64,000 bases of DNA from Mycobacterium sp. UM_CSW (GTDB lineage: Bacteria > Actinomycetota > Actinomycetes > Mycobacteriales > Mycobacteriaceae): positions 25,418 to 89,417 of the forward strand of contig NZ_AUWQ01000031.1 of NCBI RefSeq assembly GCF_000455205.1, written 5' to 3'. Shown one piece after another: positions 27,760 to 57,856 of this stretch. A program made the translations under genes and the position numbers. Below the pieces are notes generated by a model. That model was given only the letters and a program-made list of their open reading frames with translations, made no database searches and was not told where the DNA came from. How positions within the stretch are numbered: the first letter of the stretch is position 1; each line of letters starts with the position of its first letter.

Positions 27760-29040
27760 TCAGGCGGCCAGGTCGTCCCTGCGGCCCTGCTTCGCTTCCT
27801 TCTTGGCGCGCCGCCAATCCCGCACGGTGGCGATCGCGGTCTTCAGGCCGCGCCGGCGTCCGGTCGCCGGGTCGGTGCCGGCGAAACCGGGCTCCAATTC
27901 GGCGAACATCCGCTCGCTGCGCGTCTCCGGCGCGTTGTCGGCGTCGTCGCGCAGGTACTTGTTCGGCAGCGACAGCTTGGCCAGCGTGCGCCACGTCTTG
28001 GCGTACTGCACCAGGAAAGAGCCCGTGGTGTAAGGCAAGTCGTACTTGTCGCACAGCGCGCGCACCCGGACAGAAATCTCGTGCAGCCGGTTGCTCGGCA
28101 GATCGGGATACAGGTGGTGCTCGATCTGGTGGCACAGGTTGCCGCTCATGAACCGCAGCGCGGGGCCGGCCTCGAAGTTGGCGCTACCCAGCATCTGGCG
28201 CAGGTACCACTGGCCCTTGGTCTCGCCGATCATGTCGGTCTTGGTGAATTTCTCTGCGCCGTCGGGGAAGTGGCCGCAGAAGATCACGGCGTTCGCCCAG
28301 ACGTTGCGGATGATGTTGGCGACCGCGTTGGCCGTCAGCGTGGACCGATAGGTCGCGCCGGGCGACAGCGCGGTCAGCGCCGGGAACGCGACGTAATCCT
28401 TGACGACCTGACGGCCGGCCTTGGCGAGAAACTCGTCGATGCGTTGCCGGGCGTCGTCGTTGTCCATCCGCTTCTTGACGATCTTGCCCAATTCCACGTG
28501 CTGCAGGCCGACGCCCCACTCGAAGAGCAGCGCCAGCATGGTGTTGTAGAACAGGTTCAAGACGTTGAAGCGCTTCCAGCGCTGATCCCGGGTGACGCGC
28601 AGCAAGCCGTAGCCGACGTCGTCGTCCATCCCGAGGATGTTGGTGTACTTGTGGTGCACGAAGTTGTGCGTGTAGCGCCAGTGCTTGGACGACCCGCTCA
28701 TGTCCCACTCCCACGTCGAGGAGTGGATCTCCGGGTCGTTCATCCAGTCCCACTGGCCGTGCATGACGTTGTGGCCGATCTCCATGTTCTCGACGATCTT
28801 GGCCACGCCCAAGGTCACGGTGCCGGCCCACCACGCCGAGCGGCGCGAACTGGCGGCCAGCAGCACGCGGCCGGCCACCTCCAGCGCACGCTGCGCGGCG
28901 ATGGTGCGACGGATGTAGCGGGCGTCGCGCGCCCCTCGAGAGTCTTCGATGTCCTGGCGGATGGCATCCAGCTCAACGGCCAGGCTTTCGATGTCAGCGT
29001 CCGTCAGATGGGCGAATACGTCGACGTCTGTGATTGCCAC
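27760..29040 (-). CDS. desA3: membrane fatty acid / acyl-CoA desaturase (DesA3-like)
   Basis: A 426-aa membrane di-iron desaturase that introduces a cis double bond in a long-chain acyl-CoA (oleate formation from stearoyl-CoA in M. tuberculosis DesA3, Rv3229c). Histidine boxes are all present: GHNVMH (HxxxH), THNFVHHKYTN (HxxHH) and HQIEHHLYPD (HxxHH). The GTG start at 29040 follows GGGAGATGAC. Its electron donor is encoded just upstream by the ferredoxin-reductase gene, the same pairing as Rv3230c-Rv3229c. A tandem palindromic operator sits in the gap before it. Confidence 0.95.
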   Translation of the reverse strand: MAITDVDVFAHLTDADIESLAVELDAIRQDIEDSRGARDARYIRRTIAAQRALEVAGRVLLAASSRRSAWWAGTVTLGVAKIVENMEIGHNVMHGQWDWMNDPEIHSSTWEWDMSGSSKHWRYTHNFVHHKYTNILGMDDDVGYGLLRVTRDQRWKRFNVLNLFYNTMLALLFEWGVGLQHVELGKIVKKRMDNDDARQRIDEFLAKAGRQVVKDYVAFPALTALSPGATYRSTLTANAVANIIRNVWANAVIFCGHFPDGAEKFTKTDMIGETKGQWYLRQMLGSANFEAGPALRFMSGNLCHQIEHHLYPDLPSNRLHEISVRVRALCDKYDLPYTTGSFLVQYAKTWRTLAKLSLPNKYLRDDADNAPETRSERMFAELEPGFAGTDPATGRRRGLKTAIATVRDWRRAKKEAKQGRRDDLAA

Positions 29041-29079
29041 TCGTCGTCATCTCCCTACGGTCGTGTCGTCGGTGCAATA

Positions 29080-29114
29080 CCTACGCTATCGTAACCTACG
29101 AATCCGTAGGTTAC
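29080..29114. promoter_or_regulatory. tandem TACG-N4-CGTA operator before desA3
   Basis: CCTACG-CTAT-CGTA, a single A, then CCTACG-AATC-CGTAGG. The right half extends into a perfect 10-bp-arm palindrome (29091-29114, loop AATC). The left half is a second TACG-N4-CGTA. The same 30-bp layout occurs at 30347-30376 with 24 of 30 bases equal, suggesting one regulator binds both promoters. Confidence 0.7.
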
Positions 29115-29127
29115 CTGTGAGTAATCT

Positions 29128-30318
29128 TTAAATGTCGAGCACGCAATCGCCGGACGCGGCCGACACACAGGTCTGAATCCGGGTTCCGGGCTCGTGTTCG
29201 GCGCCGGTTCGCAGATCGCGGACGTGCCCGTCCACCAGGCTTACCACGCAGGACTGGCAGATACCCATCCGGCAGCCGAAGGGCATCTGCACACCCGCCC
29301 CCTCGCCGGCATCCATCAACGGCGTCGCTCCGTCGGCCGCGACGGCGCGCCCGCTGCGCGCGAACGTCACCGTGCCGCCGGCTCCGGCAGGCGCGGCCTT
29401 GGACACGGCGAACCGCTCCAGGTGCAGCCGGTCGCCGATGCCCGCCGCCGACCACACCTTCTGCGCTTGGTTGAGCATGCCCTCCGGCCCGCAGGCCCAG
29501 GTCTGCCGCTCACGCCAGTCCGCGACCTGTTGATCCAGGGCGGCCAGGTCGAGCCGGCCCTGCTTGCGGGTCTCTCGCACCTGCAAGCGGTAGCCCGGCT
29601 GGTTGGCGGCCAGCGCGCCCAGCTCGGCGCGGAACATCACGTCGGATTCGGTGGGCGCCGAATGCAAATGCGTGACGTCACCAATCTGGTTGCGGCGCAC
29701 CAACGTTCGCAGCATCGACATCACCGGCGTTATCCCGGAACCGGCGGTCAGGAACAGGATCGACGACGGCGCCGGGTCCGGCAGGACGAAGTTGCCCTGG
29801 GGCGCGGCCAGCCGCACGATGGTCCCGGGCTCGACGCCGGCCACCAGGTGGGTGGACAGGAAACCCTCGGGCATCGCCTTGACGGTGATGGTCACCGTGC
29901 GGGGCGAGCCGCTGGTCTCGGCCGGGCTCGAGGTCAGCGAATACGACCGCCACCGCCAGCGCCCGTCGACGAGCAGCCCGATCCCGATGTACTGGCCGGG
30001 CTGATAGTCGAAGCTGAAGCCCCAGCCCGGTTTGATCACCAGGGTCGCGGAATCCTCGGTCTCGCGGCGGACCTCGAGGACGCGGCCCCGCAGTTCCCGC
30101 GCGGACCACAGCGGGTTGGCCAGATGCAGGTAGTCATCGGGCAAAAGCGGCGTCGTGATCCGCGCGGCGAGCTTGCGTAGCGCGTGCCAGCCGGGGTGCC
30201 GCTCGGCGCCGGCCACAACGGGTCGCTTGGTGTCGACGACGTTGCCCCTGATCGATGGGTTACGTCTGCCCAGCGGAAGCTCCTGCTCACTAGCCGGCGT
30301 CTGGCTTACGCCCAACAT
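29128..30318 (-). CDS. ferredoxin--NADP-type reductase with C-terminal 2Fe-2S domain
   Basis: A 396-aa oxidoreductase (404 aa if GTG 30342 is used). The FAD domain holds [11 protein letters not shown]. The NAD(P) domain holds [18 protein letters not shown] and WACGPEGML. The C-terminal plant-type 2Fe-2S ferredoxin has CRMGICQSC and a final Cys in IQTC. It transfers electrons from NAD(P)H to the adjacent desaturase, as Rv3230c does for DesA3. The ATG at 30318 was preferred because the operator at 30347-30376 would almost touch the GTG start. Confidence 0.94.
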
Positions 30319-30346
30319 TGTCGCCGATTCTGTGCGCTCCACGAAA

Positions 30347-30376
30347 CCTACGGTAGCGTAACCTACGGTGTCGTAG
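30347..30376. promoter_or_regulatory. tandem TACG-N4-CGTA operator before the reductase gene
   Basis: CCTACG-GTAG-CGTA, an A, CCTACG-GTGT-CGTAG. It is the upstream copy of the operator in front of desA3, in the same orientation relative to its gene and 28 nt before ATG 30318. Confidence 0.65.
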
Positions 30377-30404
30377 CTAGTCGGAATCCGTCACATTCGG
30401 CGCG

Positions 30405-56829: not shown

Positions 56830-57507
56830 TTAGGTATGTTCTTCCGCCACTGTAGCCGCGACCCCATGACGCTCCGCGAACGGCGTCATCAGCCGGGCCA
56901 GGTCCGCCGCCACGTCTCCCCCGCCTTCGGCGGGAGGTGCCCCCAGATCGGCGCTCGGCGGCATGGACACGTAGCTCAGCGCCAGCCGCACGATGGCGCG
57001 GGCGAGCACCCCGGCGTCCTCGTCGCTGGTCGCCACCCAGCTCTGGGTGAGCGCCGTGGTCAGCCGCGCCGACGCCCGGTTGATGATGGGCCCGCTGTCG
57101 GTGGTGATGATCTGCAGCAGGTCGGGCTTAGCGACGCCGGTCAACAACGAGATCACCAGCGGGTCGGCGGCCGACTCCGCGAAGAAGGAGCGAAAACCCT
57201 GCAGGAACGCCTCGTGGATGTGGCCGACGTTGGCGTCGATCGCGGATCCGACCGCGTCGACCAGGCGATCGGCCAGGCGCAGGGCGTACCCCTGCGCTAG
57301 GCCTTGGCGCGACCCGAACTCGTTATAGATGGTCTGCCGGCTGATGCCCGCGGCGCGGGCCACGTCCGACAGCGTGATCGCCGACCAGTCCCGGGCCAGC
57401 AGCAGGTCGCGCATCGCGTCGAGCACCGAGTCGCGCAACAGGACGCGTGACGCCTCGGCATACGGCATCCGCTTCACAGGCGCGACAGTAGTAGTCGAGG
57501 CGTTCAC
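56830..57507 (-). CDS. TetR-family regulator of the alkB-rubredoxin operon
   Basis: A 225-aa TetR protein. The HTH is [35 protein letters not shown] around residues 44-75. The C-terminal helical domain is for ligand binding. The GTG start overlaps the rubB stop by 4 nt (GTGA), so it is the last gene of alkB-rubA-rubB-tetR. By order it is Rv3249c. Autoregulation of the operon through the 16-bp palindrome at 59212-59227 is the simplest model, inferred. Confidence 0.92.
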
Positions 57508-57686
57508 GGTCTGGCCACTTCCACCATTTCGAAGTCGGATTTCGCGGCGCCGCAGTCCGGGCAGCTCCAGTCGTCGGGGATGTCGTCCCAGCGGGTGCCG
57601 GGCGCGATGCCGTCTTCCGGCCAGCCCAGCGCCTCGTCGTACTCGAAGCCGCACTGGATGCATCGGAACAGCTTGTAGTCGCTCAT
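57504..57686 (-). CDS. rubB: rubredoxin RubB
   Basis: A 60-aa rubredoxin carrying one iron on four Cys: CIQCG near the N-terminus and CPDCGA near the C-terminus, with the usual [25 protein letters not shown] between. It passes electrons from a reductase to the alkane monooxygenase. ATG 57686 overlaps the rubA stop (ATGA), and its stop overlaps the tetR start. Confidence 0.95.
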
Positions 57687-57856
57687 GCCGTCACACCTTC
57701 CTTCTCGAAGTCCGCCTTCTCGCGCACCGCACAATCGGGGCAGCACCAGTCGTCGGGGATGTCGCTGAAGGGCGTGCCCGCGGGAAAGCCTTCCCGCGGA
57801 GCGCCTTTGGCCTCGTCATAAAGGTAGCCGCAACCCGGGCAGCGGTAGGCGATCAT
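57683..57856 (-). CDS. rubA: rubredoxin RubA
   Basis: A 57-aa rubredoxin read directly from the minus strand: [20 protein letters not shown] at the start, then [18 protein letters not shown]. The first Cys pair is CPGC and the second CPDC, giving the Fe(Cys)4 site; the Cys just before the second pair is extra. It begins at ATG 57856, overlapping the alkB stop (ATGA), and overlaps rubB by 4 nt. It is distinct from RubB by its shorter length and sequence. Confidence 0.93.

Follow-up and report, generated by a model that had tools for sequence, protein, structure and literature searches.

Candidate operators of an Rv1019-type TetR repressor at a mycobacterial desA3-reductase locus, and matching sites across Actinomycetota

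Introduction

A TAC-N6-GTA motif linked to palmitate-induced gene clusters was described by McGuire 2012 (PMC3388012), with three sites before Rv3229c, two before Rv3230c and three before Rv2524c (fas); the portion of that paper available to us names no regulator. The title of a 2022 FEBS J article by Pushparajan, Edison and Ajay Kumar (reference 62 of PMC9861118) states that Rv1019 negatively regulates Rv3230c-Rv3229c, and terms this pair an operon. According to an excerpt of a review, Rv1019 has also been reported to repress mfd (mfd-mazG). An excerpt of PMC9861118 describes M. kansasii mutants in desA3 or its reductase gene that grow poorly and are restored by a supply of oleic acid, and the desaturase/reductase pair therefore matters for growth. 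The core of the present finding, namely the motif, its 3 + 2 arrangement and the pairing of Rv1019 with these targets, is already known.

Several related systems invite comparison. DesT of Pseudomonas aeruginosa represses an oxidoreductase-desaturase pair. It too is a TetR regulator, sensing saturated versus unsaturated acyl-CoA (excerpt of PMC7382501); it belongs to another phylum, and we liken it to the present system by description, without claiming membership. MadR (Rv0472c), the controller of desA1/desA2, is likewise TetR-like and exerts acyl-CoA-dependent control over desaturases. It differs in its consensus (TCTGTG-N7-GT), and the part of its own paper available to us reports that deletion of madR in M. 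smegmatis left desA3 unaffected, with no up-regulation. FasR (Rv3208) is released from DNA by acyl-CoA of C16 or longer and differs from the repressor considered here in that it activates fas-acpS. Here we compare a mycobacterial locus with these systems, using computation to follow the sites, their register, conservation and genome-wide scarcity, their target classes, and their co-occurrence and linkage with a TetR gene.

Results

The locus lies in a 64-kb stretch of DNA, the whole of which we call the window. Its genes and repeated sites are as follows.

27760-29040, minus strand: desA3-type membrane fatty-acid (stearoyl-CoA 9-) desaturase, 426 aa (Pfam FA_desaturase, E 1.5e-33)
29128-30342, minus strand: ferredoxin-NADP reductase-type oxidoreductase, the electron donor, with FAD, NAD and 2Fe-2S domains (Pfam)
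29077-29126, minus strand: predicted desA3 operator, three TAC-N6-GTA palindromes (29082-29093, 29097-29108, 29112-29123) at a 15-bp offset; includes 29080-29109
30344-30380, minus strand: predicted reductase operator, two palindromes (30349-30360, 30364-30375); includes 30347-30376
29092-29113, no strand assigned: perfect 22-bp palindrome TAACCTACG-N4-CGTAGGTTA, core of the desA3 operator, 0 mismatches, score 18/18

The reductase domains (FAD_binding_6, NAD_binding_1 and Fer2) were found on 29131-30318. An earlier note on this DNA had described two 30-bp sites, at 29080-29109 and 30347-30376, alike at 24 of 30 bases and built on CCTACG-N4-CGTA; both the coordinates and this build were verified, as was their placement, one in the 87-bp gap before the desaturase gene (29041-29127) and the other just upstream of the reductase gene. 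The note had assigned nearly all differences to the N4 spacers, which understates the case, since six of six fall there. Its count of two palindromes per site holds for the reductase operator but misses the third palindrome of the desaturase operator (29112-29123), and with three palindromes against two the operators are not duplicates.

Single TAC-N6-GTA palindromes are not in excess in the window: there are five, against about 4.9 expected from composition. Every one of them, however, falls inside the two operators and in 15-bp register. The tandem form TAC-N6-GTA-N3-TAC-N6-GTA occurs three times, always at these operators and nowhere else in the 64 kb, and 0 times in 100 dinucleotide-preserving shuffles. 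What is exceptional is the clustering and register of the palindromes, not their number. With up to one mismatch, CTACG-N4-CGTA occurs 20 times in the window against 7.3 expected, exact matches being confined to the two operators. The repeated sites are real and far above chance. The best operator unit is the 22-bp palindrome, which within 3 mismatches is found at only three sites in the 6.39-Mb genome, before the desaturase gene (0 mismatches), an alpha/beta-hydrolase gene on another contig (2) and the reductase gene (3), while the reversed control pattern gave 0.

Conservation was examined in 60 genomes of the genus picked without regard to the motif, 59 of which had a DesA3 match at E <=1e-150; the closest 30 of these 59 supplied the loci in which the operators were scored. 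In all 30 of these orthologues desA3 is preceded by no fewer than two palindromes at the 15-bp spacing, and in 27/30 by three. Of the 29 orthologues in which the reductase operator could be scored, 25 carry a pair of palindromes in register, 4 a single one and 0 none. The palindromes and their register are thus kept in all 30 desA3 loci while the remaining gap sequence varies, which answers the question, raised earlier as a test of the operator reading, whether these bases are conserved upstream of desA3 in other species. A 20-bp core allowing <=1 mismatch gave 81 matches in 55 of the 60 genomes, versus 3 for the reversed control, and of the 75 core sites listed among these 81 matches, 53, spread over 52 genomes, have a DesA3-type gene no more than 150 bp downstream. 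In some members of the genus two DesA3-type genes adjoin (G046:C3:1878655-1881268; G080:C93:31331-33983).

The palindrome nearest each gene contains a hexamer that we read, from sequence, as a candidate -10 element overlaid on the operator.

29088-29093, minus strand: candidate -10 hexamer TACGAT in the promoter-proximal desA3 palindrome, TANNNT form kept in 27/30
30355-30360, minus strand: candidate -10 hexamer TACGCT in the promoter-proximal reductase palindrome, TANNNT form kept in 25/25

A scan with the sigma-70 consensus, which is a generic one, found no promoter here. The spacers of the distal palindromes vary among orthologues and those of the promoter-proximal palindromes much less; among the 25 two-palindrome reductase operators, 22 have TACGGTACCGTA as the promoter-proximal spacer. 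The free-spacer pattern proposed earlier accordingly holds for the distal palindromes only, the promoter-proximal spacer being conserved. The start of the reductase gene is uncertain between GTG 30342 and a plausible later ATG 30318; the latter fits better, because a -10 element inside the operator would leave GTG 30342 nearly leaderless.

In the GTDB species collection the exact 22-bp palindrome was found in at least 119 stretches, with 120 sites among the matches listed; the record titles of the listed stretches are actinobacterial except for one, labelled Acidobacteria (L059). The listed palindromes lie upstream of one of seven gene classes in 115 of 120 cases; of 5950 positions drawn at random from these loci, 5.6% do so. 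The motif is thus not randomly distributed, an outcome that the earlier note had named as refuting its reading had it occurred otherwise. Among the 120 listed sites the targets are a DesA3-type desaturase (51), HlyIII (32), the reductase (11), an acyl-CoA ligase (8), an acyl-ACP desaturase (8), UppS alone (3) and an alpha/beta hydrolase (2), with Pfam confirming target identity for one representative per class. In 20 of the 120 listed exact sites, counted within the HlyIII 32, the operator sits in a divergent HlyIII-UppS gap (L016, L022, L034, L046, L079 and L099 among others), and undecaprenyl diphosphate synthase may therefore share the control. Five of the 120 listed sites precede none of the seven classes (L029, L053, L054, L094, L127); at L053 a frame of the HlyIII cluster adjoins the site yet fails the class-assignment rule. 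The same operator is thus present in many other actinobacteria before further genes, mostly of lipid or membrane function. Two of the records, L033 and L129, are MAGs labelled Bifidobacterium breve (about 3.7 and 3.0 Mb) with FasR-type genes; the label is doubtful, both being unlike the other Bifidobacterium record, L053.

A FasR query was run on the motif-bearing genomes of 23 of 24 loci, L039 being left out. A FasR-type protein was found at >=44% identity in 13 genomes and at 36-38% in 2, and in the remaining 8 of 23 the best match was a second TetR type with about 29-35% identity to FasR. This is the Rv1019 type, present in these eight genomes while a FasR-type protein is absent, the absence being weaker evidence in three of the eight (L019, L054, L127), whose titles mark them as MAGs or as uncultured. 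With a profile built on the second type, 22 of 24 genomes gave a match at E <=1e-90, the one studied here among them; two motif genomes, Phycicoccus G001 and the Frankiales MAG G022, showed a FasR-type protein only and none of the Rv1019 type. FasR is the nearest curated NCBIfam model of the Rv1019-type protein, four of which, the present one included, score 97-119 bits in it against a cut-off of 330. The top solved structures matching the protein are 6o6p and 6o6n, both of which we take to be FasR.

In the genome under study the Rv1019-type gene (G000:C106:39490-40086, E 1.2e-96, with TetR_N and TetR_C) is on another contig, unlinked to the window, in keeping with the earlier statement that the repressor is not encoded there. 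It adjoins glmU, with tRNA-Gln between them, and mfd lies about 7 kb further on. G052 has the arrangement glmU - TetR - mfd - ... - eno, to which the H37Rv order Rv1018c-Rv1019-Rv1020-Rv1023 presumably corresponds. Upstream of mfd and of the TetR gene, neither of these two genomes showed an operator-like site (best 9-11 of 18), and the reported control of mfd-mazG would therefore use another sequence or be indirect.

Across 296 genomes of the phylum, with the exact tandem pattern as motif and an Rv1019-type call at E <=1e-40, the tandem occurs in 41, the protein in 66 and both in 40 (P = 1.1e-30, common descent being ignored); the sole motif genome without the protein is 62% complete. The reversed control pattern was found in 3 of the 296, and in 26 genomes the protein occurs without the tandem in its exact form. 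Of the 40 genomes with both, 27 have the tandem <=5 kb from the TetR gene, mostly at 1.0-1.3 kb. Among 29 phylum loci, a desaturase of this kind stands next to the site in 10, with the TetR gene following in 9 of these 10, and 13 had no match to the four seed proteins. Operator, desaturase and TetR gene run in this order and in one direction at five loci, four with the tandem (L180, L183, L189, L191; Nonomuraea, Planotetraspora, Nocardiopsis, Actinomadura) and one, L184 in Mumia, with a single palindrome; where the TetR gene thus follows an operator-led desaturase gene, the repressor is therefore probably self-controlling.

A crude TetR profile identified nine genes in motif loci and one in the window. 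Two of the nine, from Rhodococcus and Antrihabitans, converge on HlyIII and are 42% alike; they were dropped, because their best match among the 55 TetR proteins of the present genome was only modest (E 4.2e-16); the other seven were mixed. The frame at 56833-57690 (minus strand) was the only TetR found in the window by this profile. We presume that it resembles the regulator beside an alkane hydroxylase cluster, and set it aside because the linkage evidence points elsewhere.

Discussion

The two sites are conserved operators, very probably of one TetR-family repressor whose gene lies outside the window, and we consider there to be a strong case that this repressor is of the Rv1019 type and controls oleic-acid synthesis. 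The analysis arrives by comparative genomics at the same regulator-target pair as the title of the FEBS J article, and adds to that title a regulon spanning the phylum and the placing of the TetR gene after a desaturase gene. A conserved operator tied to one named repressor would also account for the motif left without a regulator in the available part of McGuire 2012 (PMC3388012). That motif is the same palindrome in the same evenly spaced 3 + 2 arrangement at desaturase and reductase, as far as the accessible text describes it; it differs in including fas, whereas here fas is without a desA3-type core, and the core we define is longer (22 bp, with TACG-N4-CGTA inside).

We infer direct binding, with repressor dimers occupying TAACCTACG-N4-CGTAGGTTA-like palindromes 15 bp apart. 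At about 1.4 helical turns, this spacing would place neighbouring dimers on nearly opposite faces of the DNA. Bound dimers would cover the apparent -10 box of each gene, and RNA polymerase would thereby be blocked at reductase and desaturase alike. From kinship with FasR, the likely inducing signal and ligand of the Rv1019-type repressor would be a long-chain acyl-CoA.

The most serious rival to Rv1019 is FasR itself, an acyl-CoA-sensing TetR activator of fas-acpS that might use these sites. Its gene is on the same contig, 45 kb away (G000:C31:8945-9628), it is kin to the Rv1019 type, the recognition helices being closely alike (VSKPVLYQHF and VSKPVVYEHF), and the two motif genomes noted above have only a FasR-type protein; in addition, the accessible text of McGuire 2012 (PMC3388012) groups the fas promoter, with its three TAC-N6-GTA before Rv2524c, with that of desA3. 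Against this, a FasR-type protein is missing from 8 of 23 motif genomes, with the reservation made above for three of them. The present fas promoter, moreover, keeps the FasR crystal oligo (23/25), but its best score for the desA3-type core is 10/18, roughly what unrelated sequence gives; in 5.4 kb around the fas start there are two TAC-N6-GTA, 85 bp apart, counted in exact form where McGuire used a weight matrix. The motif is also strongly linked to the Rv1019-type gene, linkage having been measured for that type alone. Weakened by its absence from the eight genomes and by the fas promoter score, FasR is an unlikely occupant of these sites. That MadR controls desA3 through them, beyond desA1/desA2, has in its favour that it is a TetR-like desaturase regulator responding to acyl-CoA, as the excerpt of its paper describes; desA3 was nevertheless not up-regulated in the madR deletion reported there, and TCTGTG-N7-GT is absent from the operators, its two exact matches elsewhere in the window being at chance level, which makes this reading very improbable. 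We regard it as just as hard to believe that the repeats are a copied or structural spacer, such as a terminator or duplicated intergenic DNA. One terminator-like hairpin does overlap 29105-29119 on the plus strand, where shuffles lead one to expect 0.7, but the palindromes and their register persist in the 30 closest orthologues while other gap bases vary, and in other genera the motif recurs upstream of different genes, most of them of lipid or membrane function.

How far the two genes are regulated apart is a closer question. The earlier note had one repressor regulating electron donor and desaturase independently; the single repressor stands, but a repressor shared by both operators implies co-regulation of reductase and desaturase, and the FEBS J title speaks of an operon. 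Separate transcripts, each tuned by its own operator so that the enzyme could be induced without its electron donor, are nonetheless possible, although we lean against them. Each gene has its own operator and candidate -10 hexamer, and the palindrome number differs between the operators and is largely conserved (three in 27/30 for desA3, two in 25/29 for the reductase). The operon of the FEBS J title (reference 62 of PMC9861118) argues the other way, as do the Gordonia and Phycicoccus loci, where a palindrome, considered in its exact form only, precedes the reductase gene and not desA3.

The open PMC literature yielded no paper that names this operator for Rv1019 or reports the PAQR link, nor one that describes the pairing of operator and regulator throughout Actinomycetota, the operator - desaturase - TetR order, the HlyIII/PAQR, acyl-ACP desaturase, acyl-CoA ligase and alpha/beta-hydrolase targets, or the overlap of a -10-like hexamer with the promoter-proximal palindrome, though such papers may exist. 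Relative to that literature, the new elements are the operator's spread across the phylum and the prominence of HlyIII/PAQR genes among its targets. In animals, PAQR proteins are linked to fatty-acid desaturation. We think it reasonably probable that Rv1019-type repressors govern a phylum-wide membrane-unsaturation regulon, in which PAQR (AdipoR-like, HlyIII) proteins and delta-9 desaturases fall under the same operator and the target (desA3, PAQR, acyl-ACP desaturase, acyl-CoA ligase or hydrolase) changes by lineage while the operator stays constant, so that the animal link between PAQR and desaturation would extend to bacteria. A 2022 paper on a bacterial PAQR protein, in the part available to us, reports effects on membrane energetics homeostasis rather than on fluidity. 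The operator before HlyIII/PAQR genes offers a cheap test of whether bacterial PAQR proteins serve fatty-acid homeostasis.

The third operator-like site of the genome (G000:C33:42338-42359, L014) has the alpha/beta-hydrolase gene on one side and, on the other, a gene that by eye looks katG-like. It is identical in the near relative G074 (L288:1556), where it is again upstream of the hydrolase gene.
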